From positions 7,072,580 to 7,136,579 of the forward strand of contig NZ_AP025018.1 of the NCBI RefSeq assembly GCF_019977735.1: DNA of 64,000 nt, written 5' to 3'. A program made the translations under genes and the position numbers. The stretch is from Calothrix sp. PCC 7716. Its GTDB lineage: Bacteria > Cyanobacteriota > Cyanobacteriia > Cyanobacteriales > Nostocaceae. Below, piece by piece: positions 1-64,000 of the stretch (positions within the stretch are counted from its first letter, which is position 1; each line of letters starts with the position of its first letter). The notes beneath the pieces are model-generated. The model searched no databases. It was given only the letters and a program-made list of their open reading frames with translations, and was not told the DNA's origin.

Positions 1-1824
1 TTTACATTTCAGCTAGTAACGGGTAAAGCCTCACGTCACGACAGTGGTTTACTTGACTGGTCTTATAAAGGTCCTCAAAACGATAAAGAATGGGCATGGT
101 TTTTCAATCGCCACTACCATTTGCTAGATTTATGTGTTGCGTATCAAAAAACTGGTAATTTAGATTATGTTTATTGTATTAATAACCATGTAATTGACTG
201 GGTTCTCTCTAGTCCTTGTAAAACAAGTCCTCAAACATGGGCAACTTGGCGCGGTTTGGAAGTTGCTTTTCGCGTTGTTCATTGGGCTACACTGTTTTAT
301 GCTTTGCAAGAGGTCAATGAGTTCAGTGACGCATCTCGCATTCTGATGCTGTCAAGTATTGCCGAACACGCTTCTTACCTTAAATACATGCATACTTGGC
401 GCCCGAACTTATTTATCCAAGAGATGAACGGTTTGGCGACAGCAGGCTTATGTTGGCCAGAGTTTAAAGATGCCAAGCAATGGTTTGAGTATGCTAGCAG
501 TCGCTTAGTTAATCAAAGCAAACAACAGGTTTATCCTGATGGTGTTCACAAAGAGCTAACAAGCCATTACCACCTGGTTACGCTACAAAATTTTGAAAAA
601 TTTGCTCAATTAAGTCGCGCGTCAGGTTATTTTATTCCTTCAGAATTTAAAGATAGACTGGAACGCATGTGGAACTATCTTGCTTACTCAATGCGTCCAG
701 ACGGTCACAGTTTGCTTAACAACGATTCTGACAGAGACTATAATCGACCTTTAGTTAATGAATTTGCAGCAACTTACCAGCGACCAGACTGGATTTATAT
801 TGCGACTAATGGCTCAGAGGGTAAAAAGCCAGAGGGTACACCATCAAGATTTTTCCCTTGGGCAGGTCAAATGATTATGCGAAGTGGCTGGAATAATGCA
901 GATCATTGGGCTTTTTTTGATATTGGTGCTTTGGGAACTAACTACCATGTACATTACGATAAATTGCACTTGTCTATTGCTGCTTATGGACGGGATTTAT
1001 TAGTAGACAGTGGAAGGTTTCGTTATGTACGCGATAATTTTTGGGGATACTTCCGAGAATCTGCTGGTCATAATGTAATTTTAATTGACGGCAAAGGTCA
1101 AAAAAATGACATTAAGCAACTCCACTCGCCTATAATTGGAAAGACTGCTATTGACCCCGAATTTGATTTTGCGAAAGGCACATTCAACGGAGGTTTTAGT
1201 GGCATCCAAGGAAAAGCAACTCATTCACGGGCTGTCGTCTACTTACGGGGAAAATACTGGGTAGTAGTTGACTATATTTTTACAAATAAGCCACGTATAA
1301 TAGAAGCAATTTGGCATTTCCATCCAGATTGTACCGTGACTGTTGAAGGACAATCAGTTGGCTCAATTGATGCCGATGTTGGAAATTTAAAAATTTTCCC
1401 AGTTTCCAATTTTTATTGGACAGTGGATATTGTCAAAGGACAAGAATCTCCTGTGCAAGGCTGGTGGAGTCGGGAATATAACCATATAACCCCAACCCCC
1501 ACAGCAATTTATTCGACAAAAATTGCAGCATCTACTACCTTCGCTTGGGTATTGGCGCCAGCTAAAGGTGAAATACCGAAAATCACCGTGGAAATTCTAC
1601 CTTATCCAGAAGCCTCATTATTTTTAACCATTAAAATTGACGGTACACCAGAAGAAAAAATTGCCGTTCGCATGAGTGGTCATGAAGTAATTAACCTGGG
1701 TGATGGTTTAGAGTTAGATGGTGATTGTGCTATTCTCCGTACTGGTAAAAAACCACTTGTTGCTTTGGGGTGCATTAGTGATAAAAATGGCAATATTATC
1801 GCCACATCAAACGATGTAACATAA
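1..1824 (+). CDS. Heparinase II/III-family protein (5' end outside window)
   Basis: The reading frame is open from base 1, so the start lies upstream; 607 codons are visible. The first ~260 residues are rich in W, H and Y and fit the alpha/alpha-toroid of heparinase/alginate-lyase-like proteins. The following beta-rich part carries the family signature around nucleotides 931-1020 (GTNYHVHYDKLHLSIAAYG, then LLVDSGRFRY). Such proteins cleave or modify acidic polysaccharides, and in cyanobacteria they sit in exopolysaccharide loci. It is followed 10 bp later by a glycosyltransferase in the same direction. Substrate and localisation cannot be read, because the N-terminus that would hold a signal peptide is missing. 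Family assignment is firm; function as a true lyase is inferred. Confidence 0.85.
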   Translation, partial: FTFQLVTGKASRHDSGLLDWSYKGPQNDKEWAWFFNRHYHLLDLCVAYQKTGNLDYVYCINNHVIDWVLSSPCKTSPQTWATWRGLEVAFRVVHWATLFYALQEVNEFSDASRILMLSSIAEHASYLKYMHTWRPNLFIQEMNGLATAGLCWPEFKDAKQWFEYASSRLVNQSKQQVYPDGVHKELTSHYHLVTLQNFEKFAQLSRASGYFIPSEFKDRLERMWNYLAYSMRPDGHSLLNNDSDRDYNRPLVNEFAATYQRPDWIYIATNGSEGKKPEGTPSRFFPWAGQMIMRSGWNNADHWAFFDIGALGTNYHVHYDKLHLSIAAYGRDLLVDSGRFRYVRDNFWGYFRESAGHNVILIDGKGQKNDIKQLHSPIIGKTAIDPEFDFAKGTFNGGFSGIQGKATHSRAVVYLRGKYWVVVDYIFTNKPRIIEAIWHFHPDCTVTVEGQSVGSIDADVGNLKIFPVSNFYWTVDIVKGQESPVQGWWSREYNHITPTPTAIYSTKIAASTTFAWVLAPAKGEIPKITVEILPYPEASLFLTIKIDGTPEEKIAVRMSGHEVINLGDGLELDGDCAILRTGKKPLVALGCISDKNGNIIATSNDVT

Positions 1825-1834
1825 ATAAAATACA

Positions 1835-3016
1835 ATGAATGACCAACGAATAGCTTGGTTACTAACCGCAGCACCCTATTACTGGCATCCTGTCTTCAGT
1901 GAGTTTGCACGTCAATTTCCCCAGACAATTCTATTTACAGCCAAATGGCCTAAATTTGCTCGCGGCTACGAAGATTCATTTACAGTTAAAGTAGTAGGAA
2001 ACCGCAAATTTTTAAAAGTCGGTTCTTCTACAACAGGGTACGGCGATACGCTGATGTTTCTATCTCCAAATATTATCGGTCATTTAATCAAATTCAGACC
2101 TCACGTAATTTTTGCTGATGGTTTTTGTTTATGGACTATTTTTGCTTTACTTCTCAAATTCTTATTTTGGTGGCGTATTGTTATTGTTTATGATGGTAGT
2201 TCACCAAGTGTTGATTACAAAAATTCAAAAATTAGAACATTTTGGCGCCGATTAATGGCTAGATTTATTGACGCTTGCATCACAAATAATAGTGCTGGAA
2301 AAAATTATCTAGTTGATGTGTTAGGGATAAACAAAAATATAGTCTTTGCTCGACCATATTTAGTGCCCGATGTTGAAGCATTGCTACATAGTTTTCAATC
2401 CCAAAATACCCTAAATAATATTATAGAAAATATCACAACACAATCACACCCAAAATATCCAGTAGTTTTTCTGTATATTGGACAAATTATTCCTAGAAAA
2501 GGAGTACGCGAACTTTTAGAAGCTTGTTTGATTCTAAAAACTCAAGGTTATTCTAACTATATTCTACTAATTGCTGGTGAAGGATGGCAGCAGCAGGAAT
2601 TAGAAAAATTCAGTATCAGCCATAATTTAGAAAATAATGTTAAGTGGTTAGGACAAGTAGAGTATAGCGAGTTGGGAAGCTATTTAAAATATGCCGATGT
2701 TTTTATTTTTCCCACCCATGAAGATGTTTGGGGAATGGCACTAACTGAAGCAATAGCTTTGGGTAAAGCTGTTATTTGTTCTATGCAGGCTGGTTCTTGC
2801 GAACTTGTAGTGGAAGGTAAAAATGGTTACCTTTTTAACTCAAAAAGTCCGGGAAAGCTAGCAGACTTAATGAAGTATTTTATAGATAATCCAGAATTAG
2901 CTATATCAATGGGTCGCTATTCAGAACAATTAATGAGCCAACATACTCCACAAATAGCCGCAGAATTCCTTACTCAGGTTGTATATAGCGTTTCCCACTC
3001 TCATAAGGTACAGTAG
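1835..3016 (+). CDS. GT4-family glycosyltransferase
   Basis: 393-residue GT-B glycosyltransferase. The C-terminal Glycos_transf_1 half starts near residue 205 with FLYIGQIIPRKGVRELLEA and continues to VFIFPTHEDVWGMALTEA, where the usual E-x7-E donor-binding motif reads D-x7-E, followed by GKAVICSMQAGSCELV. The N-terminal acceptor half (AWLLTAAPYYWHPVFSEFAR) is divergent. It probably adds one sugar to a polysaccharide repeat unit on the cytoplasmic face of the membrane. It lies 10 bp after the heparinase-like gene and 5 bp before the next glycosyltransferase, so the three are probably co-transcribed. Donor and acceptor sugars are unknown. Confidence 0.88.
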   Translation: MNDQRIAWLLTAAPYYWHPVFSEFARQFPQTILFTAKWPKFARGYEDSFTVKVVGNRKFLKVGSSTTGYGDTLMFLSPNIIGHLIKFRPHVIFADGFCLWTIFALLLKFLFWWRIVIVYDGSSPSVDYKNSKIRTFWRRLMARFIDACITNNSAGKNYLVDVLGINKNIVFARPYLVPDVEALLHSFQSQNTLNNIIENITTQSHPKYPVVFLYIGQIIPRKGVRELLEACLILKTQGYSNYILLIAGEGWQQQELEKFSISHNLENNVKWLGQVEYSELGSYLKYADVFIFPTHEDVWGMALTEAIALGKAVICSMQAGSCELVVEGKNGYLFNSKSPGKLADLMKYFIDNPELAISMGRYSEQLMSQHTPQIAAEFLTQVVYSVSHSHKVQ

Positions 3017-3021
3017 CAACT

Positions 3022-4155
3022 GTGAGTAAACCATCTGTTGTTATATTTAATAGTCTTTTGCTTCCGCCTTCTCAGACTTTCGTGCGTAATCTTGGAGAAA
3101 AACTGCAAAATTTTACTCCGTACTATGTAGGTTCGCGTTATGTTCGAGGATTAACTTTGCCAAAAGAGCATACCCTAGTTGTTAATCAAGGAGACTTTCG
3201 CGGTAAAGCAGAGGAGGGCTTGTTCAAGATTTTCGGATTTGCACCAAAGCTGTATCAAGAAGTAAAGCAGTTGAATCCAGTTTTAATCCATGCTCAATTT
3301 GGACTAAGTGCCTCGTTAGCACTACCTTTAGCACGAACATTAAAGCTTCCTTTACTCGTTCACTTCCGAGGTGCAGATGCTACACAACAAGAAGATTATG
3401 TTCGCTACTCCTCTATCAACCATTGGGTTTACTATCAGCGTTGTAAAAATCTCCAAGCTGAGGCACGGCTTTTCATTGCCGTATCCAAATTTATTCGTGA
3501 AAAGCTTTTAGAACAAGGGTTTCCTAATGAAAAAATAATTGTCAATTATGACGGCATTGATATAAAAAAGTTTCAGCCAGATGCATCAGTACTCCGTGAA
3601 CCAGTAGTACTTTTTGTTGGTCGTCTGGTTGAAAAAAAGGGATGTAAGTATTTAATTGAAGCAATGGCTAAAGTACAGACTGTTCTCCCTGATGTCGAAT
3701 TAGTAATAATTGGTGATGGTCCGCTTCGCAAAAGCTTGGAAGAGCAAGCGTCAAAACTACTTTACCGCTACCAATTTTTAGGAGTACAGGCGCCAGATGT
3801 TGTGCAAAGTTGGATGAATCGTGCCCGGTTACTTGTGGCATCAAGCGTCACCGCTACCGATGGAGATTCTGAGGGTTTACCTACTGTCGTTGTTGAAGCT
3901 CAAGCAATGGGATTACCAGTAGTAAGTACTATTCATGCTGGAATCCCAGAGGCGGTTATTCATGGAAAAACGGGTTTTTTAGTGCCAGAGCGTGATTTTG
4001 AAGGGCTTGCTAAATATATTTTGTGGTTATTAGAAGATTCAACTCTTTGGCAACTTTTTAGCTATGAGGGGCAAGAGCATATCCGAGCTAATTTTGATAG
4101 CTTTAAGCAAGCTAAAGTTTTAGAAAAGATGTATCAAGAAGTTTCTTGCTCTTAG
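3022..4155 (+). CDS. GT4-family glycosyltransferase (WcaL-like)
   Basis: 377 residues, GTG start 5 bp after the preceding stop. The N-terminal Rossmann half includes LLVHFRGADATQQ. The C-terminal half shows VVLFVGRLVEKKGCKYLIEAM and the full E-x7-E motif in EGLPTVVVEAQAMGLPVVST. The pattern resembles colanic-acid-type WcaL and related GT4 enzymes. Last gene of a three-gene rightward unit; the hairpin-rich repeat just downstream separates it from the convergent pectate-lyase-like gene. Specificity is not determinable. Confidence 0.9.
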   Translation: MSKPSVVIFNSLLLPPSQTFVRNLGEKLQNFTPYYVGSRYVRGLTLPKEHTLVVNQGDFRGKAEEGLFKIFGFAPKLYQEVKQLNPVLIHAQFGLSASLALPLARTLKLPLLVHFRGADATQQEDYVRYSSINHWVYYQRCKNLQAEARLFIAVSKFIREKLLEQGFPNEKIIVNYDGIDIKKFQPDASVLREPVVLFVGRLVEKKGCKYLIEAMAKVQTVLPDVELVIIGDGPLRKSLEEQASKLLYRYQFLGVQAPDVVQSWMNRARLLVASSVTATDGDSEGLPTVVVEAQAMGLPVVSTIHAGIPEAVIHGKTGFLVPERDFEGLAKYILWLLEDSTLWQLFSYEGQEHIRANFDSFKQAKVLEKMYQEVSCS

Positions 4156-4191
4156 AGGATGTTTGAAAATATTGCATTAGACCATAGCTTT

Positions 4192-4273: not shown

Positions 4274-4276
4274 ATT

Positions 4277-6175
4277 CTACTTATTGCCAACAAATAAAGG
4301 TAACAGACTACCGTTACAGCCACTACTAGGACTGCTACCTCGTTCAATAACTCTTGTATTGCTACCTTGCTTTTCGCTAATTAAAGTCTTGAAAGGATTA
4401 CCATTAAAATTGCATTCACTAATAGTTAGAGATATTGAAGAATTATCTAGGGCAAACATAGGCGTTTTTTTAGGAGCAGCAGTAGAGTAAATAAACCCGC
4501 CAGCGATTTCTGTTTTTCCACCCCCCTTAGTGTCTACAACGATACCATGTCGCTCAGTTTTGAGACCGAGTACCCAAAGTGTACCCTGATTGTTGACTAT
4601 TTTCGTTCCGATATTTTCGGGATTTAACTGTCTAGCCCATACTTTTTGATTATTAAAAGTCCAAGGTCCACCAACAACATCTTCAATAAATAGCTGACCT
4701 CCTCCTTTACTAGTGTAGCTTGCTTTACTACTGGTGTTAGCTAAAGCTGTGCTACTCAAAACCAAGGTTCTGTTGGAGTCATGTACAACACCGCTTCCCA
4801 ACCCATCAAACCGCTCGATGATAACAACTGGCGAAGAACCATCAACAAAATGAAAAACTCCTTTGCCTGAAATGTTGGCTTCTAAACCAATGATTCTTTT
4901 AATATTACCCCGAATGTAAATTGGGCGGCTAATGTTATATATGCCATTCGGGAAATATAGGGTAGTTTTACCCGAATCAATAGCAGCTTGAATCGCTACG
5001 CTGTCATCCCTTTTATCGCCCGGTTTGGCGCCGAAGTCGGTTGGGCTAACCCATTGACTTAAAGAGTCCCAAGCTACTTCCGGTGTCTCCTGTATCGGTA
5101 AATTTAATGTTTTCTGTGAAGTTTTAAATAAGCTGATAATCGGATGGGAGACAAATTCTTTAACCGAACCAGATGCAACGTTTTGGCGAGAACCTCGGTT
5201 ATTTTGAATAGCGGTTCCATAGCCTGGTGTAGTAATATTACGAGCAAGCAGAGATGAACCGTTAATTATTGCCTTCTCTGGAGATGATGTGCCAATTCTG
5301 GTTAAGTTAGCATCTAATAGTGTCATCAAGCCGTGCTTATTGTAGATAGCAGGGACAGAATTACGGCTGACTAAATTCCGAATGCTGATGACTTGACCGT
5401 CATTATAAAAGCCAAATTCTTTTTGGTTTTGCAACGTAATATTTTCAAAGGTTTGGCTATTTACTCTATGTCCCGTCCAAATACCACGATTAAAGCCAAT
5501 AACCTGCAAGTTTTTGATTAAAACAGGACCAACCTCATCGGTATATCTCATATCCAACCCAGCTACACCCTGACCGTCACCAGATTGAATATTGACGTTA
5601 CGTACAGTACCTTGATTACTTGCGTTAAATTGGATACCAATCGCTCCTGGATTGTCGTTACCAGTATCGACTGTCAAATTGCGAATAGCATTGCGAAAAC
5701 GCTGTGCTGGACTAGTTCCAGTCCAAATCACAGCTTTGGGTTTAGCTGGGTTTGTAAAATCTTTAGCGTTGTTTTTTAACTTAATAATTGTCTTAGTACT
5801 ATTCTGACCTTGTAGAATTATCCTTTTTTCTCTAGATGCTTCAACACCCTTTGCCCATCTTAATTGGTCTGAAATCAAATAAGTACCATTTGGTAGATAG
5901 ATAATTTTATTCCTATTAGGGTAATCATTTAACGCGCGTTGAATTGCTTGCGTATCATCCGTCACCCCATCTCCCTTGGCGAAATAAGGAGCATCCTTAA
6001 CATTAATTACACCAGCATTCTTTGGAAAAAGAATATTTTCGCTACTCGTACTTTTAAATGCTAGGGTAGGCGCCTTATCATTTAACGATAACGATTGCTT
6101 TATATTTATAATGATAGCTAAAAAAGTTATTAAACTACCTATAGCTCCTATAGCTAGTAAAGGTTTTTTATTCAT
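4277..6175 (-). CDS. Pectate-lyase-3-like beta-helix protein, membrane anchored
   Basis: 632 residues. One hydrophobic segment at residues 6-27 suggests a signal anchor or signal peptide. Two Pectate_lyase_3-type openings are visible: DAPYFAKGDGVTDDTQAIQRAL near residue 60 and PTDFGAKPGDKRDDSVAIQAAI near residue 375, each followed by a parallel beta-helix rich in N, G and I. Proteins of this fold bind or cut polysaccharides outside the cytoplasm. As the last gene of the leftward cluster it may trim or remodel the exported polymer. No catalytic residues can be assigned with certainty, so it could also be a structural or binding protein. Confidence 0.8.
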   Translation of the reverse strand: MNKKPLLAIGAIGSLITFLAIIINIKQSLSLNDKAPTLAFKSTSSENILFPKNAGVINVKDAPYFAKGDGVTDDTQAIQRALNDYPNRNKIIYLPNGTYLISDQLRWAKGVEASREKRIILQGQNSTKTIIKLKNNAKDFTNPAKPKAVIWTGTSPAQRFRNAIRNLTVDTGNDNPGAIGIQFNASNQGTVRNVNIQSGDGQGVAGLDMRYTDEVGPVLIKNLQVIGFNRGIWTGHRVNSQTFENITLQNQKEFGFYNDGQVISIRNLVSRNSVPAIYNKHGLMTLLDANLTRIGTSSPEKAIINGSSLLARNITTPGYGTAIQNNRGSRQNVASGSVKEFVSHPIISLFKTSQKTLNLPIQETPEVAWDSLSQWVSPTDFGAKPGDKRDDSVAIQAAIDSGKTTLYFPNGIYNISRPIYIRGNIKRIIGLEANISGKGVFHFVDGSSPVVIIERFDGLGSGVVHDSNRTLVLSSTALANTSSKASYTSKGGGQLFIEDVVGGPWTFNNQKVWARQLNPENIGTKIVNNQGTLWVLGLKTERHGIVVDTKGGGKTEIAGGFIYSTAAPKKTPMFALDNSSISLTISECNFNGNPFKTLISEKQGSNTRVIERGSSPSSGCNGSLLPLFVGNK

Positions 6176-6240: not shown

Positions 6241-7626
6241 TCAACCCATTTCTAGGGAATGTGTAGGATTTGTACTCCCATATAGAGAGCGTTCTTTAAA
6301 AGCTTTGTTAATTCGGCGTTCCTGCCACTGTAAACCAATTAAAATAGTGACAACGAGCATATAGGCTGGCTCTTCCATTTGCGAGAAAATCAAACCGTTA
6401 ACCACTACATTGAGTATCAAAAACTTGGAAAAGTTATCAACGCAAAGTCGAGTCCAGACTATAAACAATATATATGTATAGGCCCCTAGACCAACTAATC
6501 CTAAATCTCCCCAAATACCTGCCCAACCGAATAAAGGAGAAAACATACTAGAAGCAGGACCAAGCCAACTGGCAGACACTGCATTCCATACTTCCTGACT
6601 GACAGGATGAATAGTGGCGCCTAATGGACTTAATAGATCCCAATATATTGGGAGCATCCACCCTCCTAATCGTCCAACTGTGTGTCCAGGGCCCAGACCA
6701 AACAGCCAATTCAAAGGTGATTTATAATGACTCATAATCAAGCGAATTGATGCCGTCTTAAGTTTTGTAGCCTCACCATCAGGTCCGTAAAGCTCTGGTC
6801 TGTTCCAGGTGTTAAAAGCGCGAAATAGTTCTAAGTTTTGCGTACACCATATTAATATCCAAACAATCAAAACTGCTGCTATTGTATATTGTATAGTTTT
6901 TCCAACATCTTTTAGGTTAATCACAATTACAATAAACCAAGATATCAAAGATACAAGAAGCGTCTGCTTGGCATCAGCAAATAAAAGCTGAAGAAAAGCA
7001 GCAAAAAAAACAGAAAGCCGCAACCACATTGGAGATTTTTTTGCACTAATTAAATAATATATTCCAAAAGATATGGAAACAGAAGCTCCTACAACATGTC
7101 CACTTCCCGATAAATAAAAAACTCCTTGAATATTATCGGCAGGAACTTTCATTGTAGTTAGCTTAAGAATGCCAGCGCTTAGAAGTAATTGCTGGAAGAG
7201 AGCCAAAAAAATGTGAAAACAGTTAAACCTTATAAACCATTTTCTAAACGATATAAAACTTGTTTGAGCCATAGGCAGACAAATCATCGCTGGTAGAAAT
7301 AAAAAAGGCTCAACAAGTAATAAAAACTGCAATAAAAGGTTGATTACTCCAGCACGATTAACTAGTGCGCTGGCACTTATCACCCCTAATAGAATTATCA
7401 GACTAGACAGCAGCGTCTTTGATATTGAAATCTGATTATAATTCTTGGTTCGCGTATTAAATAGTGCTAATACGCTTGCAAAAGGAACTATAGCAAAGTG
7501 AACAAAATTAATGATTGCTGGAAAACCTATTGTCTCGAGTAGGCGCGGGAAAAAGACAGTTGTAAACGCTATTAAAAGCAGCGTTGTACTCTTGAGCAAC
7601 CCTTGATTTTTCTTGAGATATGACAT
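6241..7626 (-). CDS. O-antigen polymerase/ligase-like membrane protein
   Basis: 461 residues with about ten to twelve hydrophobic segments and a long soluble loop in the C-terminal half containing LFGLGPGHTVGRLGGW, a layout typical of Wzy polymerases and WaaL ligases. I chose the internal ATG (MSYLKKNQG): it is preceded by AGGA at good spacing, whereas the ATG nine codons upstream has none. In this cluster it is the best candidate for the polymerase of the Wzx/Wzy pathway, acting in the membrane. Sequence conservation in this family is weak, so the assignment rests on topology and context. Confidence 0.72.
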   Translation of the reverse strand: MSYLKKNQGLLKSTTLLLIAFTTVFFPRLLETIGFPAIINFVHFAIVPFASVLALFNTRTKNYNQISISKTLLSSLIILLGVISASALVNRAGVINLLLQFLLLVEPFLFLPAMICLPMAQTSFISFRKWFIRFNCFHIFLALFQQLLLSAGILKLTTMKVPADNIQGVFYLSGSGHVVGASVSISFGIYYLISAKKSPMWLRLSVFFAAFLQLLFADAKQTLLVSLISWFIVIVINLKDVGKTIQYTIAAVLIVWILIWCTQNLELFRAFNTWNRPELYGPDGEATKLKTASIRLIMSHYKSPLNWLFGLGPGHTVGRLGGWMLPIYWDLLSPLGATIHPVSQEVWNAVSASWLGPASSMFSPLFGWAGIWGDLGLVGLGAYTYILFIVWTRLCVDNFSKFLILNVVVNGLIFSQMEEPAYMLVVTILIGLQWQERRINKAFKERSLYGSTNPTHSLEMG

Positions 7627-7787: not shown

Positions 7788-8951
7788 TTAGACAGATTTA
7801 ACTTGGGTATAAATCTCCATTAATCGCTGGTAATTCTTCTCGGCAGTGTATTTGGTTTCATACTCAGCGCGCGCTTCTTGGCGCATTTGGGCAAGCTCCG
7901 TTGGATGTGATACAGCCCACTCTACCTGAGCAGCTAACTTTTCTGAGTCACCAGGGGGGAAAAGGAGTCCAGTTCGACCAGAATCTACTAGCTCGGCGAT
8001 GGCGCCAATATCAGCAGCAATCACAGGTGTTCCTTTAGCAAACGCTTCTACTGCAACCCTACCAAAAGTTTCATACCATTTTGATGGAAAGATTAAAAAC
8101 ATCGCTTCTCCCATTAGAGTATAAACTTCTTTCATCGGTCTACGTCCCAGCCATTCAACTTGAGGAAGTCGTTTTGTAGCTGACTCCACCTCAGCAGCAA
8201 GAGGACCTTCCCCAATAATTTTTAGAGGGATGTGTCCACCCAGATGTTCCCAAGCTGCAAGCAGCGTATCTAACCCCTTTTCAACAGAAAGTCTTCCCAC
8301 AAACAGAGCATAGCCACCACTTCCAGAGCCAGAACCAGGATCGGGGTGGACAAAATTGGGCTTAACTACAATCTTGGATGCTGAGAATCCCCCTTGAATA
8401 AACTTTTGACGCGCGAACTCGGTTAGGGCAATATAAATATCCACCATGTTATCCCAGGTACGTAGAGTACGGTGTAACGTGAGCATGGTTGCTACTGCTG
8501 CGCTGGCAACTTGACTTTCTCGGTAACAACCATGTACAACACCTGGTAAGGGAACAAACTTGCCCACACAGTCTTCACAAACCTGCCCATCTCGAAAAAA
8601 CAGACCATTAGGACACAGCAAGCGGTAATTTCGCAATGTTTGTACTACGGGCACTCCTTGAGCTTTAGCTGCATAGTAAATCGAGGGAGAAATTAAAGGA
8701 AAAAAATTCTGTACGTGAATAAGGTCATGAGTATGCTTATTAAGTTGCTGTTTAACAGTTTGATATGCCTCTTGCGACCAAATCGTTCGGGATGCCACAT
8801 GTATGGAATTCATAGTAGCAATGCGGTCGTTGTGTTCTTCATAAACTTCAACCTCATGCCCCATTTCCCTTAGTAGACGTTCCTCGGCTTGGCGAGACTC
8901 ATCCTCACCTCCACGAATTTGATAGCAGTTATGTATACTGAGGATACGCAT
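7788..8951 (-). CDS. GT4-family glycosyltransferase
   Basis: 387 residues from the ATG of MRILSIHNCYQIRGG. A ribosome site AAGGAAG lies 8 bp upstream; a longer in-frame start at 8996 would overlap the preceding gene. The N-terminal half has the RGGED/LRNYRLLCPNG pattern and a Cys pair in VCEDCVG. The C-terminal half has ALFVGRLSVEKGLDTLL and E-x7-E in ETFGRVAVEAFAKGTPVIA. Predicted to add a sugar to the lipid-linked repeat unit. It lies 25 bp after the previous gene of the leftward operon. Confidence 0.9.
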   Translation of the reverse strand: MRILSIHNCYQIRGGEDESRQAEERLLREMGHEVEVYEEHNDRIATMNSIHVASRTIWSQEAYQTVKQQLNKHTHDLIHVQNFFPLISPSIYYAAKAQGVPVVQTLRNYRLLCPNGLFFRDGQVCEDCVGKFVPLPGVVHGCYRESQVASAAVATMLTLHRTLRTWDNMVDIYIALTEFARQKFIQGGFSASKIVVKPNFVHPDPGSGSGSGGYALFVGRLSVEKGLDTLLAAWEHLGGHIPLKIIGEGPLAAEVESATKRLPQVEWLGRRPMKEVYTLMGEAMFLIFPSKWYETFGRVAVEAFAKGTPVIAADIGAIAELVDSGRTGLLFPPGDSEKLAAQVEWAVSHPTELAQMRQEARAEYETKYTAEKNYQRLMEIYTQVKSV

Positions 8952-51305: not shown

Positions 51306-51875
51306 ATGCCTTTGGAACTGCCGCTAATTACATGCACACGCATCATTATTCGCATGGCAACAAACGAGGATATACCTAAAATCCTAAATTACTTTAGCGA
51401 GAATAAAGCGCATCTCACTCCTTACTACCCATCTTGGCAAGATGGATTTTTCACTAGAGAATACTGGGAATTACAAATTCAAGTTAATTATCAGGAGTTT
51501 GCTAACGACCGTTCTTTGAGACTTTTTATTTTCCCCAAAGCTAACCCGAATCAAATTATTGGTACCCTCAATTTTAGCAATATTGTTCGAGGCGCCGCGC
51601 AGTACTGTAACGTTGGATACAGTTTGGCAGAGAACGAACAAGGCAAAGGTTTCATGACAGAAGCTATGCAAAGCAGCATTGAGTACATGTTTCAAGAATT
51701 TAACATGCACCGCATTATGGCAAACTATATTCCCCATAACCAGCGTAGTGGTACCTTACTCAGGCGCCTAGGATTCGTCGTAGAAGGATATGCTAGAGAT
51801 TATCTAATGATAAATGGTAAATGGGAAGACCATATATTAACCAGCATTACAAACCCCAACTGGAATCAGACGTGA
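51306..51875 (+). CDS. GNAT-family acetyltransferase (RimJ/RimL-like)
   Basis: 189 residues from ATG; an in-frame TTG four codons upstream is less likely. RimJ-type pattern: CTRIIIRMATNEDIPKILNYF, IIGTLNFSNIVRGAAQYCNVGYSLAENEQGKGFMTEAM with the Q/RxxGxG/A acetyl-CoA site as EQGKGF, then NMHRIMANYIPHNQRSGTLLRRLGF. Probably N-acetylates a ribosomal protein or another N-terminus. Cytoplasmic; transcribed divergently from rfbB. Confidence 0.9.
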   Translation: MPLELPLITCTRIIIRMATNEDIPKILNYFSENKAHLTPYYPSWQDGFFTREYWELQIQVNYQEFANDRSLRLFIFPKANPNQIIGTLNFSNIVRGAAQYCNVGYSLAENEQGKGFMTEAMQSSIEYMFQEFNMHRIMANYIPHNQRSGTLLRRLGFVVEGYARDYLMINGKWEDHILTSITNPNWNQT

Positions 51876-55709: not shown

Positions 55710-56039
55710 CTAAGAACCTAACTTAAATGCTTCAATAAACAAACTATAAGTCAAACCTATCTTAAAAATATTTAATGCTTCTATCCAAAATGATTCCACA
55801 CCAACACGGCGCCGATAAAATAATCTACTGACTAACTCAACTGCCAAAACAATAAGCGCTGCTACGTAAATATCTAGTTCTGCTCTTTGCCCTGCACTCG
55901 TCGAAATAGCCGTTCCTATAAAAATACCTAGCAGAAAACTGATAATAATTACCGACCAACGGCGCCAGGGGTTAGATAACCACTGCCCTAACCGTAGCGT
56001 AATGGTGCCAACCAAATTATTTAACCGTGTATTTTGCAT
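55710..56039 (-). CDS. ycf20: Ycf20-like protein (DUF565)
   Basis: 109 residues. RLNNLVGTITLRLGQWLSNPWRRWSVIIISFLLGIFIGTAI is the DUF565/Ycf20 opening, followed by a second membrane stretch (VAALIVLAVELVSRLFYRR) and ALNIFKIGLTYSLFIEAFKLGS. Found in cyanobacteria and plastids; the plant homologue is linked to thermal dissipation of excess light energy. First gene of a two-gene leftward unit. Confidence 0.9.
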   Translation of the reverse strand: MQNTRLNNLVGTITLRLGQWLSNPWRRWSVIIISFLLGIFIGTAISTSAGQRAELDIYVAALIVLAVELVSRLFYRRRVGVESFWIEALNIFKIGLTYSLFIEAFKLGS

Positions 56040-56851: not shown

Positions 56852-57694
56852 TTACCCAATTTTTCTTTCTGATGCCAAAGTCAAGCTCGTCCATTCTCCT
56901 TTATCATCATACGAACGAATCATACGCTGGCGCCAGTTTGGTTCAATAAGCCATCCGGTTTCTAGAAATAAAGGTTGTCGTGGTTGTAATTTGGTAGGGT
57001 AAGTTGCCGAGGCGCCGTCAGGCAACATTAATATGTGTATAGGGTTATTTGGGTTGCCGTCAAACTCAAGAATGGAACCGTTGATTAAAGCTGTTGAAGT
57101 GATGGTATGATTTCCAAAACTAAGATTTTGCACTAAGTGACCGTCTTCGAGATGCAGTTTCATCTTGGTTGTGGAAGTCACAGGGTTACGTAAATCTGTA
57201 AATATAGTAGTAGTTTCGCCTTCCCATTCTCCCAGTAAAGCTTCCACACTCAACGGTGGACGTTCAGCTTTATCGCTTCCTTCACTATGCTCCCTGATTA
57301 GAGTAAGTGACTTTAAATTACCTTCGTTATTAAATAATTGTACTAAACGCATACGGCGATTTTCGTGAATCAACCCAAATTCGGCGCCAAATTCTGCAAA
57401 CGGTGCGAACTGTATTGTCCCTTGACTAAAGGCGCCGTTTTTAAAGAATAACGTACTCCGTGCTATCGTACTAAATTCTAAAACTAAATCTTGTAATCCT
57501 TCGCGTTGTAATGTTAAGCGTGCAGATTGATTATTATTAAGTCCTTCGAGCGTTAAACGACTCGCACGGTCGTTAACTTGTTCTCCTTGGGGTGAGAACT
57601 GTGTAAACGAACCCACCCAAACATTCAAATTTTTTAGAAAAGATTCCCATTGATTTAACACAACCCTATCCTTTTGCGAACCGACGGACAGCAA
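56852..57694 (-). CDS. DUF3598-family protein
   Basis: 280 residues, beta-rich, no signal peptide. WESFLKNLNVWVGSFTQFSPQGE, FFKNGAFSQGTIQFAPFAEFGAEFGLI and LLGEWEGETTTIFTDLRNP match the cyanobacterial/plant DUF3598 family, which has a lipocalin-like fold. A role in pigment or lipid binding is suspected for the family but unproven. Its start overlaps the end of ftsX by 29 bp, so the two are translated together. Confidence 0.82.
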   Translation of the reverse strand: MLSVGSQKDRVVLNQWESFLKNLNVWVGSFTQFSPQGEQVNDRASRLTLEGLNNNQSARLTLQREGLQDLVLEFSTIARSTLFFKNGAFSQGTIQFAPFAEFGAEFGLIHENRRMRLVQLFNNEGNLKSLTLIREHSEGSDKAERPPLSVEALLGEWEGETTTIFTDLRNPVTSTTKMKLHLEDGHLVQNLSFGNHTITSTALINGSILEFDGNPNNPIHILMLPDGASATYPTKLQPRQPLFLETGWLIEPNWRQRMIRSYDDKGEWTSLTLASERKIG

Positions 57695-58568
57695 ACAAGC
57701 TCCCCATTAATCCTACCGTTGCACCGAACCCCAAAAGCACTAATGGTAAAAGTAATGTTTGTGCGAAGGATAATTTTAACCCTGTAGTTAAAAATTTAAT
57801 AAATTCGGGTTGGTTACGAAGTAGCTGGTTAACAAACCGAGAAGTCAAACTAATAAAACCCCATGCTATTCCACCACCAAATAATCCAAAAGCAACACCT
57901 TGAAAAATAAAAGGCAAGTATATCCACGTAGAAGTGGCCCCAACAAGCTGCATAATTTCAATTTCACGGCGCCGTGCCATTACAATCAAGCGAATCGTAA
58001 TACTCGTTACAGCAATAGCAGTCAAAGTTAAAATAACCGTAATAGTCAACGTCATCCAATTCAAACCGCGATTTAACTGAGCAATGCGTACAACCGCTTC
58101 ATCCACATATTGCACAGTTTCCACACCTTTCAACTTCGCCAACTGCGTTGCTAATTTAGGCACTGCATCAGCCGAGCGTGCTTTAACTTTTAATTCATCT
58201 ACCAATGGGTTAGTTCCAAGCTGCTGAGTGGCGCCTTCAATATCAGACATTCCCAACTCTTGCACCAACTTTGTCCAAGCTTGGTCTTTTGTAATATTTT
58301 CTACATTCACTACTCCCGGCATTTGAGCTACCATTGGCACCATAACAGCAGCCGAAGCATTACTCTCTAAATATACCGACACCTCCAACTGACTACCAAA
58401 CTGGTTCAGCAACTTTTCTAATTGCCAAGAAGTTTGCAGACTCATACCGAACAAAAACAGAAGTACTGTAATAGTACTAACAGCTGCCCAGTTCATCCAG
58501 GCGCCTCGCTTTAAACCCAAAAACGTCTCTTTAAGAAGATAATCTAACTTTGTAAATATTTTTAACAC
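57666..58568 (-). CDS. ftsX: Cell-division ABC transporter permease FtsX
   Basis: 300 residues from the GTG at 58568, preceded by AGGGG at 5 bp; an ATG 22 codons upstream lacks homology and ribosome site. Cytoplasmic start KLDYLLKETFLGLKRGAWMNWAAVS, first membrane helix, a periplasmic domain (LEVSVYLESNASAAVMVPM) and three C-terminal helices with MARRREIEIMQLVGATSTWIYLPFIFQG, all FtsX features. With FtsE it controls peptidoglycan hydrolysis at division; ftsE is not nearby in this window. Confidence 0.93.
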   Translation of the reverse strand: MLKIFTKLDYLLKETFLGLKRGAWMNWAAVSTITVLLFLFGMSLQTSWQLEKLLNQFGSQLEVSVYLESNASAAVMVPMVAQMPGVVNVENITKDQAWTKLVQELGMSDIEGATQQLGTNPLVDELKVKARSADAVPKLATQLAKLKGVETVQYVDEAVVRIAQLNRGLNWMTLTITVILTLTAIAVTSITIRLIVMARRREIEIMQLVGATSTWIYLPFIFQGVAFGLFGGGIAWGFISLTSRFVNQLLRNQPEFIKFLTTGLKLSFAQTLLLPLVLLGFGATVGLMGSLFAVRRFAKG

Positions 58569-58670: not shown

Positions 58671-58790
58671 CTTGTGGAACGGGCATCCTTGCCCGTCACA
58701 ATTGTAGGTTGGGTGGAGGAACGGAACCCAACACCATATTACTTTTTACCACAGAGACACAGAGGACACAGAGGAGGAATTAAAATTGGC
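58671..58790. repeat. Cluster of short dispersed repeats
   Basis: In a 415-bp gap upstream of ftsX: CTTGTGGAACGGGCATCCTT (with GCCCGTC after it), also seen in variant form at 23531, 26657 and 61841; then GGTTGGGTGGAGGAACGGAA, whose inverse is at 62335; then CCACAGAGACACAGAGGACA. All are non-coding mini-repeats. Confidence 0.65.
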
Positions 58791-58983
58791 GCCTCATAGT
58801 TTTTATCAAATTTACAATTTTATTGTTACATTTATACTATTCGAGAGAAATAGTTTGTTTTAACACTTAATATTATTTACATTCTGCCATCCTTTTCCTT
58901 TGCCTAACCAATGCTGCGAGAATTGTTAAGATTGAAGTAACATACCGTATAAAACTAGCCAGTTAGAGCGAGTGACTTTTCCC

Positions 58984-59547
58984 ATGCCATCTGATATCGC
59001 CGTTGAGAAGAAAAAGTTAAAAAATCCACCTTTGAAGTTGCACTACCTGGGAGACCGCGCGCTGCGTCAACCAGCCAAGCGAGTTACAAAAATTGACGAT
59101 GAAATTCGTCAACTCGCACGTCAAATGCTGCAAACTATGTACAGTAGCGATGGTATTGGGTTAGCGGCGCCTCAAGTTGCCATTAACAAGCAACTTATTG
59201 TTATCGATTTAGAACCCGACAAACCCAACAGTCCACCATTGGTTTTAATTAACCCTACCATTAAACAAACCAGCGAAAAATGTGACGTTGCTCAAGAAGG
59301 CTGTCTAAGTATCCCCAACGTTTATATGGATGTTAAACGTCCAGAAACCGTGGAAATTGCTTACAAAGATGAATATGGGCGCCCGAAAACGCTGAAAGCT
59401 GATGGTTTACTCGCGCGTTGTATTCTACATGAAATGGATCACCTCAACGGTGTGGTTTTTGTAGACCGCGTGGAAAATTCGCTTGCATTGGGACAAGAAC
59501 TATCTAAAAATGGTTTCTCACAGCAGGCTGTAAAACCAATAGTATAA
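58984..59547 (+). CDS. def: Peptide deformylase
   Basis: 187 residues from the ATG of MPSDIAVEKKKLKNPP; an in-frame GTG four codons upstream is possible. All three active-site motifs are intact: GIGLAAPQ (57-64), EGCLS (105-109, metal-binding Cys) and HEMDH (149-153, metal-binding His and catalytic Glu). Removes the formyl group from nascent proteins. Followed 15 bp later by a small membrane-protein gene. Confidence 0.97.
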   Translation: MPSDIAVEKKKLKNPPLKLHYLGDRALRQPAKRVTKIDDEIRQLARQMLQTMYSSDGIGLAAPQVAINKQLIVIDLEPDKPNSPPLVLINPTIKQTSEKCDVAQEGCLSIPNVYMDVKRPETVEIAYKDEYGRPKTLKADGLLARCILHEMDHLNGVVFVDRVENSLALGQELSKNGFSQQAVKPIV

Positions 59548-60089: not shown

Positions 60090-61817
60090 ATGAGACACGA
60101 AAAACTTTCCGCTGGACTTTTGCTTGCATACGAAGATTATCAAAATGAAGGTGAGCAAGCGTTAATACCACATAAACGTTCTCTTGGTATAGTTTCGGCA
60201 AAAAGTAATGTTAAGCCAACTAAGAGCGTAGTTTTTGTTTACTGCAATGAAAATGCCGACTTGAGTCACCTTGAACCATATGGAGTCCGAGTTAACCAAA
60301 GTACAGGCACCGTTAGAACAGCATATTTACCTATTGATGGTTTAGATGCATTATCAGAAGAAGACACAGTTCAACGTATTAAGCCATCACGAAAAATGAA
60401 GTTATTGATGGATGTGGCGCCTGGTAAAGTTAAGCTTCCTGAGTTTAAAAATAAAACAGGATTAACAGGTAAAGGTGTAGTTATCGGTATTGTAGACAGT
60501 GGTATCGATGCCAAACACCCAGCTTTTGCAGGTCGCATTTTGCGTATTTGGGACCAAACAATGTCTGGCCCTGGTGTTGCTGAAGGTAGTTACGGCGCCG
60601 AGTTTACAGGAGAGCAACTTACTATTTCTCCAGATACCGAAGGACATGGTACCCACGTAGCTGGTATTGCAGCAGGTGCAGATGAAAATTATGGTGGTGT
60701 GGCGCCTGAAGCCGAATTAGTAATAGTTAGAAGTGATTTACAAGATGCTCACATTGCTGATGGTATTCGCTACGTTTTTCGAGTTGCGCGCGAGTTAGGC
60801 AAACCAGCAGTAGTAAATTTAAGCTTAGGTGGACATGCCGACGCGCACGATGGTAGTGACTCACTATCTAAAATTATTGACGCAGAAACAGGCCCTGGAC
60901 GTATAGTTTGTTGTGCAGCAGGAAACGAAGGCAACGATAATATTCATGGTCAAGCTCTAGTGGCGCCTTGTTCAATGCATACAATGCGGTTCAACGTACC
61001 GCTTAATCAAGCTGGTATTGTTTGGTTAAACGGATGGTATACAAAAGACGCACAATTAGAAGTGCAATTACGGAGTCCTAACGATTTTGTTACACCTTGG
61101 CAAAAAGTTGTCACTGAAGGTAATCCTGCACAAGAATATACTTTGCCTGATGCGCGCATAAAAATCGTCACACCTGGCCCAGATGCAGCAAACGGAGACT
61201 ATAATTTCTTCGTCCAAATTCGCGGTACAGAATCTTCACAAGTATCAGGTGGAATTTGGCAATTACGCTTACGAAATCAAACATCGAACGAAACCCGTAT
61301 TGATGTATGGACAATTGACAACTCAGGCTCAGTATTCTTTACAGGTCAAAGCGTCCAAGATGCAATGAAAATTGGCTCTCCAGGTTGTGCAGCTTCTTCA
61401 ATAACAGTAGCCGCTTATACAACAACAAACAAGTACAACGACATCGACGGTAAAGAGCGCGAAGTTGGATTAAAGCTAGACGATATTTCTGATTTCAGCA
61501 GCGAAGGGCCATTGCGTAACCAAGCTCAAAAACCCGATGTTGCGGCGCCGGGAGCAATGATAGCATCAACAATGTCATCGGCAGCAGGTTTCGACCGTTC
61601 CATGATGATTAACTCCAAATTTGTGATGATGGCTGGTACAAGTATGGCATGTCCATTTATCACAGGTGTAGTAGCTTTAATGTTACAACGTGACCCAAGC
61701 TTGGCGCCTGAAAAAGCCAAAGAAATGTTACGCAGCAACAGCTATATTCCCGAACAACCTCAAAACACCTTCGACCCAAAATGGGGATTCGGATTAATCA
61801 ACACCGAAAACCTGTAA
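60090..61817 (+). CDS. S8-family (subtilisin-like) serine protease
   Basis: 575 residues. Catalytic triad visible: Asp 136 in GIVDSGID, His 186 in GHGTHVAG, Ser 518 in GTSMACP, with the oxyanion Asn in CCAAGNEGN. Between His and Ser lies a ~200-residue insert with a jelly-roll look (YNFFVQIRGTESSQVSGGIWQLRL), as in PA-like or tripeptidyl-type subtilases. Residues ~45-107 (VVFVYCNENADLSHL ... RIKPSRKMKLL) look like an inhibitor-I9-type propeptide. There is no signal peptide, so it may act inside the cell. The next gene encodes a protein like this propeptide. Confidence 0.93.
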   Translation: MRHEKLSAGLLLAYEDYQNEGEQALIPHKRSLGIVSAKSNVKPTKSVVFVYCNENADLSHLEPYGVRVNQSTGTVRTAYLPIDGLDALSEEDTVQRIKPSRKMKLLMDVAPGKVKLPEFKNKTGLTGKGVVIGIVDSGIDAKHPAFAGRILRIWDQTMSGPGVAEGSYGAEFTGEQLTISPDTEGHGTHVAGIAAGADENYGGVAPEAELVIVRSDLQDAHIADGIRYVFRVARELGKPAVVNLSLGGHADAHDGSDSLSKIIDAETGPGRIVCCAAGNEGNDNIHGQALVAPCSMHTMRFNVPLNQAGIVWLNGWYTKDAQLEVQLRSPNDFVTPWQKVVTEGNPAQEYTLPDARIKIVTPGPDAANGDYNFFVQIRGTESSQVSGGIWQLRLRNQTSNETRIDVWTIDNSGSVFFTGQSVQDAMKIGSPGCAASSITVAAYTTTNKYNDIDGKEREVGLKLDDISDFSSEGPLRNQAQKPDVAAPGAMIASTMSSAAGFDRSMMINSKFVMMAGTSMACPFITGVVALMLQRDPSLAPEKAKEMLRSNSYIPEQPQNTFDPKWGFGLINTENL

Positions 61818-61952: not shown

Positions 61953-62231
61953 ATGAACTACAAGAAAATTGATGCTGCTTTAGCAATGGCTATTGACGAA
62001 GTAGATACCTCAGAACAACCCAGCCTAATAGTATTTATTCATACTAACCAGCCACTTGAGGCGCCTGCAATTACATTTTTAGAAAGCTTAGGAATTAAAG
62101 ATGTAGCTAGCGACAAAGATATTTATACTGCCACCGTTTCATCTGGTACAGTTTCTCAACTGTCACACCAACCTTGGGTGAAGTCTATTAAGCTATCGCA
62201 AAAACTGCGCTTGATGAAAGTTGGAAATTAG
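61953..62231 (+). CDS. Small propeptide-like protein, candidate inhibitor of the adjacent protease
   Basis: 92 residues. SLIVFIHTNQPLEAPAITFL, the TATVSSGTVSQLSHQPWV stretch and IKLSQKLRLM parallel residues 45-107 of the upstream subtilase (VVFVYCNENADLSHLEPYG; RTAYLPIDGLDALSEEDTV; IKPSRKMKLLMD) in order, spacing and hydrophobic pattern. Inhibitor-I9-type propeptides fold subtilases and block their active site. A free-standing copy 135 bp downstream is probably an inhibitor or folding helper in trans. The match is by pattern, not by high identity. Confidence 0.65.
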   Translation: MNYKKIDAALAMAIDEVDTSEQPSLIVFIHTNQPLEAPAITFLESLGIKDVASDKDIYTATVSSGTVSQLSHQPWVKSIKLSQKLRLMKVGN

Positions 62232-62566: not shown

Positions 62567-63856
62567 GTGAAAAAAGTATTATCAATAATTCTCGGCGGCG
62601 GTGCAGGAACCCGCCTCTACCCATTGACGAAGTTACGTGCGAAACCGGCAGTGCCTGTGGCAGGTAAATACCGTTTAATAGATATCCCTGTAAGTAACTG
62701 TATAAATTCGGAAATATATAAGATATACGTCCTGACACAGTTTAACTCAGCCTCTTTAAACCGCCATATTGCTCGTGCGTATAGTTTTGCGGGTTTTAGT
62801 GAGGGTTTTGTGGAGGTGTTAGCAGCACAGCAAACACCCGAAAACCCTAGTTGGTTCCAAGGAACAGCAGATGCAGTACGTCAATACCTTTGGTTATTAG
62901 AGGAATGGAATGTTTCGGAATTCCTAATTTTATCGGGTGACCACCTTTACCGGATGGACTACCGATTATTTATAGAACGTCATCGTCAAACAAATGCTGA
63001 CATTACACTGTCGGTAATACCAATGGATGAGCGACGCGCGTCAGACTTTGGGTTAATGAAAATAAATGACTCAGGTAGGGTAATTGACTTTAGCGAAAAG
63101 CCAAAAGGTGATGCTCTTAAACAGATGCAAGTTGATACTAGCGTACTGGGATTAAGTGAGCAGCAAGCCAAGCTTCAACCGTATATTGCCTCAATGGGGA
63201 TTTACGTATTTAAGAAAGAGGTTTTGATCAAGTTACTCAAGGAATCTTTAGAACGAACAGATTTTGGTAAAGAGATTATTCCAGATGCAGCAAAAGACCA
63301 TAACGTACAGGCGTATTTGTTTAACGGTTACTGGGAAGACATTGGAACAATAGAGTCTTTCTATCACGCGAACTTAGCGCTAACGCAACAGCCACTACCT
63401 CCATTTAGTTTCTATGACGAACAAGCTCCTATATACACCCGCGCTCGTTACTTACCTCCAAGTAAATTATTAGATTGTCAAATAACCCAATCGATAATTG
63501 GGGAAGGATGTATCCTCAAAAATTGTCGAATCGAACATTCGGTACTTGGTGTACGTGCGCGCGTAGATTCTGGATGCATAATTGAAGACTCGTTATTAAT
63601 GGGCGCCGACTTTTACCAAACTTCTGTAGATAGAAAAGGTATTCGAGATGAAGGAAATATTCCTGTAGGTATTGGTGCAGAAACAATAATTCGCCGTGCC
63701 ATCGTCGATAAAAATGCACGTATTGGTCATGATGTCAAAATTATCAACAAAGATAACGTTCAAGAAGCTAACCGTGAAGCCCAAGGGTTTTACATTAGAA
63801 GCGGTATCGTAGTAGTACTCAAAGGCGCCATTATTCCAGACGGAACAGTTATATAG
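62567..63856 (+). CDS. glgC: Glucose-1-phosphate adenylyltransferase (ADP-glucose pyrophosphorylase)
   Basis: 429 residues, GTG start, with AGAAACC-AGA upstream but only a weak ribosome site. Makes ADP-glucose for glycogen. N-terminal [21 protein letters not shown], then [29 protein letters not shown], and [18 protein letters not shown], followed by a left-handed beta-helix ([21 protein letters not shown]) that carries the 3-PGA regulation site in cyanobacterial enzymes. Length exactly typical. Confidence 0.97.
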
Positions 63857-63928
63857 TGCTGAGTGCTGAGTGCTGAGTGCTGAGTAAAGAGTTAAAACTC
63901 AGCACTCAGCACTTTCTACTCAGCACTC
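63855..63928. repeat. Heptanucleotide repeats forming a hairpin after glgC
   Basis: Four GTGCTGA-type units, a short spacer, then inverse CTCAGCACT units. It begins at the glgC stop codon. It matches the arrangement at 54211 and could end transcription from both sides. Confidence 0.9.
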
Positions 63929-64000
63929 TTTTAGTTCGGAAATTGCCCTTTGACATTGAGCAAGAACCGCACTTAGTCGTGTTGAATTATTTGTTAAGTT
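63920..64000 (-). CDS. 3' end of a leftward gene leaving the window
   Basis: On the minus strand the last 81 bases read open as NLTNNSTRLSAVLAQCQRAI followed by SELKEC and TGA, a helical-looking C-terminus whose stop falls in the heptamer repeat. Only 26 codons are visible, so this is a tentative call; family unknown. Confidence 0.35.
   Translation of the reverse strand, partial: NLTNNSTRLSAVLAQCQRAISELKEC

Follow-up and report, generated by a model that had tools for sequence, protein, structure and literature searches.

The highly iterated palindrome HIP1 (GCGATCGC) of cyanobacteria has no agreed function, and selection acting on it has reportedly been studied by Xu, Lawrence and Durand. 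Other words can stand in its place. According to the available text of Elhai (2015, PMC4390886), GGCGCC is such an alternate highly iterated palindrome (HIP) in Calothrix PCC 7103 and D253, where HIP1 has been lost and two methylases of GRCGYC specificity are present, while GCSGC (Cyanothece PCC 7822) and RCCGGY (Oscillatoria PCC 10802) are further alternate HIPs. The same text argues that alternate HIPs are sporadic and do not persist, regards two methylase copies as possibly critical, and states that the base methylated by enzymes of GRCGYC specificity had in no case been established. Our literature search, in which some papers were covered in part, found no later paper on GGCGCC in cyanobacteria. 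Here, we analyse GGCGCC starting from a 64,000-nucleotide stretch of Calothrix sp. PCC 7716 (hereafter the window; bases 7,072,580-7,136,579 of the 11.42 Mb contig NZ_AP025018.1, in a genome of 12.37 Mb). The swap of HIP1 for GGCGCC is already published for a strain of this genus and is not a new discovery; what is new is its genus-wide persistence, a blind reading of the methylase's specificity, a decay mark at the inner C of the word, and a protection that is limited to the word.

Exact counting gives 75 copies of GGCGCC in the window (1.17 per kb at 38.0% GC; Table 1), the number that the initial annotation had arrived at by eye, and all nine example coordinates given there are correct within 2 bases. 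Its estimate of three to five copies by chance agrees with Markov expectations of 3.0, 4.9 and 4.5 at orders 0, 1 and 2. The expectation is 14.0 at order 3 and 38.3 at order 4, the latter being inflated because the 5-mers GGCGC and GCGCC consist largely of the sites themselves; the order-4 comparison (75 vs 38), which understates the excess, was rejected as a baseline in favour of orders 0-2. The sites fall in genes and gaps alike, as had been claimed: open reading frames (ORFs) of at least 100 amino acids (aa) hold 66 of them (1.28 per kb) and the remaining DNA holds 9 (0.73 per kb), with 28 in the first half of the window and 47 in the second. HIP1, which had been noticed once, does occur in a single copy.

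The excess extends to the whole genome, where GGCGCC occurs 20,380 times (1.65 per kb), a 32-fold excess over the 629 copies expected at order 0 from the GC content (0.385) of a 284 kb sample. HIP1 occurs 66 times as compared with 64 for its reversed control word, and is thus at control level. GGCGCC is therefore not near its Markov expectation and HIP1 is not common outside the window, the two outcomes that had been named in advance as contrary to a replacement. The reversed control for GGCGCC itself, CCGCGG, has 7 copies in the genome and is not neutral: it is avoided in its own right, and a gene for an endonuclease resembling Eco29kI, the site of which is CCGCGG, adjoins a methylase gene on contig C4. 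Spacing of GGCGCC is near random (414 gaps, sd/mean 0.99), although gaps shorter than 100 bases are too few (37 vs 53.8).

We compared 217 genomes of the family, namely seven from the genus of the window and 210 others. The seven are PCC 7716 (G000), Dulcicalothrix desertica PCC 7102 (G060), Calothrix PCC 7103 (G061), Calothrix HK-06 NIES-2101 (G062), Calothrix NIES-4105 (G063), and two metagenome bins, Calothrix C42_A2020_038 (G064) and Calothrix FI2-JRJ7 (G065). GGCGCC counts range from 7475 to 20,380 in all seven and from 0 to 1053 in the 210 others, whereas HIP1 counts are 31-163 in the seven, 535-8803 in 209 of the others and 30 in the remaining one. The proposal that GGCGCC takes the place of HIP1 is hence borne out in all seven genus genomes compared, which contradicts the published view of alternate HIPs as sporadic. 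In one cyanobacterial genus (D. desertica PCC 7102, Calothrix PCC 7103 and close kin) GGCGCC qualifies as the alternate HIP: it is an over-represented GC-rich palindrome with a density near one per kb (from 1.15 in C42_A2020_038 to 1.71 in FI2-JRJ7), HIP1 proper (GCGATCGC) shows no over-representation in the window or the genome, and a candidate methylase is present. As a separate observation, three genomes of the same family (G194, G184 and G191) have low HIP1 counts (535, 990 and 574) and no GGCGCC substitute, and the stretches sampled from G194 (60 kb) and G184 (40 kb) hold no palindromic hexamer above about three times its expectation.

The initial annotation had suggested a different methyltransferase in this lineage and had advised looking for an orphan enzyme with this site. 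Such a search does bring up an orphan-looking candidate in all seven genus genomes, a 5-methylcytosine (m5C) methylase that we call L010-type. In PCC 7716 it is 335 aa long and encoded at 10.95 Mb (PF00145, E 2.2e-64); copies in the six other genomes are 82-92% identical, and the best match outside the genus is 70%. The PCQ and ENV motifs are invariant in 10 sequences, the nearest solved relative is M.HaeIII (E 6.8e-35), and in a tree of 46 sequences the seven main copies form one clade (support 100/100) within which PCC 7102 and PCC 7103 are sisters. The gene sits at the same chromosomal place in all seven genomes. A RuBisCO-like gene on one side and an S-layer/glycosyl-hydrolase gene on the other enclose it in PCC 7716, PCC 7102, PCC 7103, NIES-4105 (with two small ORFs between the flanking genes) and C42_A2020_038; in FI2-JRJ7 it adjoins the former and a part of the latter. 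In NIES-2101 the chromosomal gene is split by contig ends, residues 1-89 lying on one contig end and 213-315 beside the S-layer gene on another, and the full copy is carried by a short contig whose content is different. Some genus genomes have second copies; PCC 7102 and C42_A2020_038 have a single match at E 1e-60, and therefore two copies are not required. The suggestion of a lineage-specific enzyme did not hold in full: relatives at E 1e-60 or better (at most 70% identity, some of them fragments) occur in 55 of the 210 other family genomes; GGCGCC is scarcer in these (median 1.07 per Mb) than in the 155 without a relative (5.00 per Mb; p 0.0009).

No endonuclease family was recognised among the seven neighbours of the L010-type gene that were scanned in PCC 7716, two of which match no family. 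A protein that we call c8 is encoded near the gene in PCC 7716, PCC 7102, PCC 7103 and NIES-2101 and was not seen there in NIES-4105, C42_A2020_038 or FI2-JRJ7; searches against Pfam and PADLOC gave no match. In PCC 7102, PCC 7103 and NIES-2101, c8 stands beside a 658 aa m5C methylase. It is intact in PCC 7103 (435 aa), whereas PCC 7716 retains a 178 aa piece (L161:13125-13661) and the long methylase is not there, so the remnant looks like what is left of a lost restriction-modification unit. Another methylase, the L015/L033 type, was considered as DmtC and rejected, as it occurs in only 37 of the 210 other family genomes and hence is not the near-universal HIP1 methylase. It is cut short in PCC 7716 (G000:C1:11118734-11119681), carries a stop in PCC 7103, is a fragment in FI2-JRJ7, has no match at E 1e-60 in C42_A2020_038 and is full length in PCC 7102, NIES-2101 and NIES-4105; by its sequence it appears to be a modification gene caught in decay inside one genus.

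The specificity of the L010 subfamily was read from words avoided around its genes. One genome per species was scanned, over 84,980 species; this turned up 408 relatives, and the analysis covered the best 80 together with at most 10 kb of flank on each side: 7 genus loci, 41 cyanobacterial loci outside the genus and 32 non-cyanobacterial ones, the last two groups being separated by hand from record titles. Avoidance was ranked over 2080 hexamer classes against an order-1 model. In the non-cyanobacterial group (32 loci, 507 kb) avoidance is strongest for, in order, GACGCC (8 vs 128.3 expected), GACGTC (4 vs 58.5) and GGCGCC (9 vs 77.0), which together are exactly GRCGYC; we therefore infer, blind and from word avoidance only, that the subfamily targets GRCGYC. 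The same three words rank 23, 7 and 18 in the 41 cyanobacterial loci, where other avoided words crowd in. In the seven genus loci (five main-copy, two second-copy) GGCGCC is the most enriched of all 2080 classes (244 vs 11.7), while GACGCC (7 vs 23.1) and GACGTC (1 vs 11.4) stay low. PCC 7716 likewise combines enriched GGCGCC with depleted GACGCC/GGCGTC (7 vs 46) and GACGTC (4 vs 37), and the genus clade could have narrowed to GGCGCC. As for the base, M.BsaHI methylates the central C of GRCGYC, according to the available text of PMC2413257. A degenerate target GGYRCC was rejected: GGTACC is not enriched (25 vs 37), and conservation is near average in small numbers (15/19, 14/18, 9/12 and 2/8). 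Also dropped was G435, a genome from another family of the order, as an independent replicate. It has 9489 copies of GGCGCC and a relative of the L010-type methylase at 55% identity, with only 37% matches in three sister genomes, but in 48.5 kb (loci L242-L244, L300 and L306) AGCGCC/GGCGCT (226 vs 33) is more enriched than GGCGCC (100 vs 19.9), AGCGCT being at expectation (13 vs 13.8).

To see how sites change, up to 484 kb of PCC 7716 was aligned with its relatives, from 37 kb (NIES-2101) to 320 kb (PCC 7103). In a first alignment of 284 kb, PCC 7103 retains 246 of 293 GGCGCC sites unchanged, as compared with 485 of 769 sites of other all-G/C words; in NIES-4105 the corresponding figures are 79 of 102 for GGCGCC, 127 of 229 for the other all-G/C words and 46% for hexamers as a whole. 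C42_A2020_038 keeps 45 of 86 aligned sites. Since most sites of PCC 7716 are shared with NIES-4105 and about half with C42_A2020_038, many probably predate the diversification of the genus. Third codon bases inside the word are conserved in NIES-4105 more often than in the same codons elsewhere (GGC 44/54 vs 52/108; GCC 46/53 vs 65/132), although some small classes show no significant difference.

The changes that do occur are concentrated at the centre of the word. Among 344 sites at which a majority of PCC 7716, PCC 7102 and PCC 7103 carry GGCGCC, 102 have changed: 67 by an inner transition (C3>T 39, G4>A 28) as against 45.5 expected, 14 by any of the 16 other kinds of single change as against 151.6, and 21 by more than one change. 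As these expectations come from average base rates, a codon-matched comparison is safer, with the provisos that one codon may count for two kinds of change and that changes are taken as independent though PCC 7102 and PCC 7103 are sisters. Here, protein-changing inner transitions are raised 9-fold (20/387 vs 12/2080 elsewhere, p 2e-9), synonymous outer changes are suppressed about 8-fold (6/238 vs 218/1022, ratio 0.12, p 4e-15), and protein-changing outer changes do not differ significantly (2/611 vs 18/1746). CpG context alone fails to explain the inner excess because the control codons GCG and CGC contain CpG. Third positions within the word differ among species in a fraction of 0.03-0.09 (outer) and 0.21-0.25 (inner); those 1-3 bases outside it differ in 0.13-0.19, as compared with 0.15 overall, so that the suppression does not reach beyond the word. 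The CpG palindrome CGCGCG is enriched as well; it has no comparable pattern of protection and hotspot at its 76 sites, where 27 single changes (about 44 by average rates) are spread over all six positions. This word is, in its own right, a second enriched palindrome in all seven genus genomes (132 vs 14.5 in 284 kb of PCC 7716, 133 vs 9.2 in NIES-4105), with 24 copies in the window.

A hotspot of inner C-to-T change among otherwise protected bases is as expected of 5-methylcytosine at the inner C combined with a force that preserves the word, and these mutation patterns suggest that GGCGCC is methylated at that base. We consider it probable that GGCGCC is a methylated landmark which a word-specific force, probably selection, keeps while deamination erodes it. 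The L010-type methylase would place 5-methylcytosine on the inner C (GG-5mC-GCC), which would raise C-to-T decay at that base, and a force specific to the whole word would remove nearly all other changes. Selection that favours methylated landmarks would be a likelier candidate for this force than a general bias of repair, and the sites may now be either held against deamination or slowly losing to it. The sharp edge of protection is unlike methyl-directed mismatch repair, which should also cover the flanks, and selection on the word fits it better. By analogy with HIP1, we favour the idea that the methylated site serves repair or chromosome upkeep; the mark might be read, for instance, in the choice of strand during repair or in the organisation of the chromosome.

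Several observations weigh against the methylated landmark. The genus has many m5C methylases other than the L010 type, with 16 matches to the m5C methylase family in PCC 7716 and 9-17 matches to PF00145 per genus genome, fragments included. The L017 type is also found in all seven genus genomes; it was set aside as the responsible methylase because it is common to 161 of the 210 other family genomes. (Its gene lies at G000:C1:831858-833045 and is followed, by our reading of the ORFs, by deoC-like and recO-like genes.) The c8 protein could be an endonuclease outside known models. Some rarer hexamers (20-50 copies) are conserved as well as GGCGCC or better, and synonymous inner transitions occur at the normal rate (51/261 vs 191/891), so that raised mutation and protection are separable only by combining codon classes. 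A word-specific repair enzyme may fit the same pattern as selection. Losses of GGCGCC also outnumber gains, by 82 to 21 in PCC 7102 and PCC 7103 with PCC 7716 as outgroup (60 control words in a smaller alignment: 298 losses vs 366 gains) and in 9 of 10 species triples overall, the tenth, with C42_A2020_038 as outgroup, having 7 losses and 11 gains. The set of sites is therefore largely an old one, and it either undergoes erosion or loses sites that are later regained. This fits poorly with fully effective selection or with a present-day ratchet. PCC 7103, with 53 losses against 8 gains and a density of 1.53 per kb against 1.70 in its sister PCC 7102 (by rounded genome sizes), would favour net erosion.

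The alternative to be taken most seriously, though we think it unlikely, is the ratchet proposed by Elhai, in which methylated GC directs mismatch repair such that newly arisen GGC-half sites are retained and GGCGCC multiplies, although the word itself would have no function. Methylation of the inner C is a requirement of this model and is supported by the decay pattern; the model predicts the depletion of GACGCC/GGCGTC and GACGTC next to enriched GGCGCC; and spontaneous deamination would escape a replication-linked repair, which matches the unsuppressed inner transitions. Yet protection ends at the edge of the word, when methyl-directed repair should span hundreds of bases, and the predominance of losses over gains, the near-random rather than even spacing and the two genomes with a single methylase match all run counter to it. 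Very-short-patch repair (Vsr) of T:G to C:G would act on the decay products instead, enriching GGCGCC at the expense of GGTGCC, an effect known from Dcm sites in E. coli. At 8 of 15 sites with a GGTGCC/GGCACC majority, the remaining species has GGCGCC (0.57 expected), but losses that are shared or occurred in parallel can produce the same picture; none of the seven genus genomes has a match to PF03852, which has one match in the 217 family genomes, and GGTGCC and GGCACC are not depleted (71 vs 46 expected). We regard this explanation as very improbable.

It is also improbable, if somewhat less so than Vsr, that the word is an identity tag, marking own DNA for uptake or protecting it from an endonuclease encoded elsewhere in the genome. 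Word-specific conservation and the presence of the word on a plasmid (29 copies in 20.9 kb of NIES-4105 plasmid 1) would suit such a role; a palindrome at near-random spacing suits it less, and none of the neighbours scanned beside the L010-type gene in PCC 7716 belongs to a recognised endonuclease family. Finally, base composition or codon (pair) bias alone would account for the word without methylation or selection. The Gly-Ala frame GGC GCC is indeed the commonest, with 194 of 362 coding sites, but sites occur in all three frames and in non-coding DNA, third bases at outer positions of the word change much less than those of identical codons elsewhere, and relatives of like GC (G003 and G194, 0.40 in sampled stretches) have just 92 copies in 8.6 Mb and 326 in 10.7 Mb, respectively. 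This explanation is refuted.

A broader and more tentative proposal, which we put forward as a possibility rather than an expectation, is that the function of a HIP resides not in one sequence but in a lattice of closely set, methylated palindromes rich in GC. The word of an orphan GRCGYC methylase would have been selected into the role of the lost HIP1, and GG-5mC-GCC would have been kept through the radiation of the genus by word-specific selection even as its methylated base decays. Given that HIP1 lacks an agreed function, a genus that swapped it for the word of another methylase is a natural replicate. Its genus-wide persistence weakens one of the two arguments for selection on the HIP1 sequence in the available text of Elhai (2015), namely that substitutes do not persist. 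As our finding names one gene and predicts one methylated base, and as the mutation pattern could separate methyl-directed repair from selection on the word, the question of what such words do becomes easier to test.

Other features of the window concern different words and repeats. There is strong avoidance of GATC (37 vs 161) and GGCC (19 vs 85), and CTGCAG does not occur at all (0 vs 14); GATC is low around the methylase in other genus genomes, too. At least 3.2 kb of positions 44001-47230, with GGCGCC sites in it and an ORF at 44785-46194 that is a transposase by appearance, is present four more times on the chromosome with about 100% identity. Short repeats (about 90-150 bases) at approximately 47309-47455, 49764-49870 and 54199-54356 have many copies in several genus genomes.

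Table 1. Positions of GGCGCC and HIP1 in the window (position 1 is its first base).
Feature	Position	Strand
Whole window, 75 GGCGCC, 1.17 per kb	1..64000	.
GGCGCC	398..403	.
GGCGCC	1554..1559	.
GGCGCC	2244..2249	.
GGCGCC	3789..3794	.
GGCGCC	5027..5032	.
GGCGCC	6069..6074	.
GGCGCC	6616..6621	.
GGCGCC	8001..8006	.
GGCGCC	9234..9239	.
GGCGCC	9797..9802	.
GGCGCC	10943..10948	.
GGCGCC	13725..13730	.
GGCGCC	14550..14555	.
GGCGCC	16591..16596	.
HIP1 (GCGATCGC), sole copy in window	16721..16728	.
GGCGCC	20105..20110	.
GGCGCC	20544..20549	.
GGCGCC	22731..22736	.
GGCGCC	22837..22842	.
GGCGCC	23569..23574	.
GGCGCC	24590..24595	.
GGCGCC	25748..25753	.
GGCGCC	26008..26013	.
GGCGCC	26512..26517	.
GGCGCC	26932..26937	.
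GGCGCC	28379..28384	.
GGCGCC	28556..28561	.
GGCGCC	30608..30613	.
GGCGCC	31938..31943	.
GGCGCC	32735..32740	.
GGCGCC	35683..35688	.
GGCGCC	36642..36647	.
GGCGCC	38261..38266	.
GGCGCC	38681..38686	.
GGCGCC	39736..39741	.
GGCGCC	40928..40933	.
GGCGCC	41482..41487	.
GGCGCC	41574..41579	.
GGCGCC	42279..42284	.
GGCGCC	45057..45062	.
GGCGCC	45166..45171	.
GGCGCC	46278..46283	.
GGCGCC	46583..46588	.
GGCGCC	47780..47785	.
GGCGCC	48081..48086	.
GGCGCC	48954..48959	.
GGCGCC	49353..49358	.
GGCGCC	50876..50881	.
GGCGCC	51591..51596	.
GGCGCC	51763..51768	.
GGCGCC	53364..53369	.
GGCGCC	53426..53431	.
GGCGCC	54049..54054	.
GGCGCC	55247..55252	.
GGCGCC	55279..55284	.
GGCGCC	55808..55813	.
GGCGCC	55961..55966	.
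GGCGCC	56929..56934	.
GGCGCC	57011..57016	.
GGCGCC	57383..57388	.
GGCGCC	57431..57436	.
GGCGCC	57968..57973	.
GGCGCC	58230..58235	.
GGCGCC	58500..58505	.
GGCGCC	58788..58793	.
GGCGCC	59166..59171	.
GGCGCC	59378..59383	.
GGCGCC	60416..60421	.
GGCGCC	60594..60599	.
GGCGCC	60701..60706	.
GGCGCC	60962..60967	.
GGCGCC	61544..61549	.
GGCGCC	61703..61708	.
GGCGCC	62060..62065	.
GGCGCC	63602..63607	.
GGCGCC	63824..63829	.

Among described enzymes, the L010-type methylase resembles the BsaHI and HgiDI methyltransferases of PMC2413257, as far as the available text goes: it is likewise an m5C enzyme, and its subfamily avoids GRCGYC at loci outside the genus. Their TL motif would correspond to TI at residues 233-234 of L010, with an invariant Arg 12 and an Ala/Gly 10 residues before the Thr, by our own reading of the spacing. 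In contrast to these systems, no endonuclease family was recognised beside the gene in PCC 7716, and within the genus one of the target words is enriched, not avoided. Like HIP1, GGCGCC is a GC-rich palindrome that occurs about once per kb inside and between genes and is linked to methylases, but the sequence and the methylase are different ones, and HIP1 itself is at control level here. GCSGC and RCCGGY are likewise methylase target words in the place of HIP1, each known from one genome in the available text of Elhai (2015), unlike the genus-wide GGCGCC. The closest case remains that of Calothrix PCC 7103 and D253, with the same word, HIP1 lost and a GRCGYC methylase present, PCC 7103 being itself a member of the window's genus; to that account of a sporadic substitute, our analysis adds persistence in all seven genus genomes, a decay mark at the inner C, and two genomes in which a single methylase copy accompanies the word.

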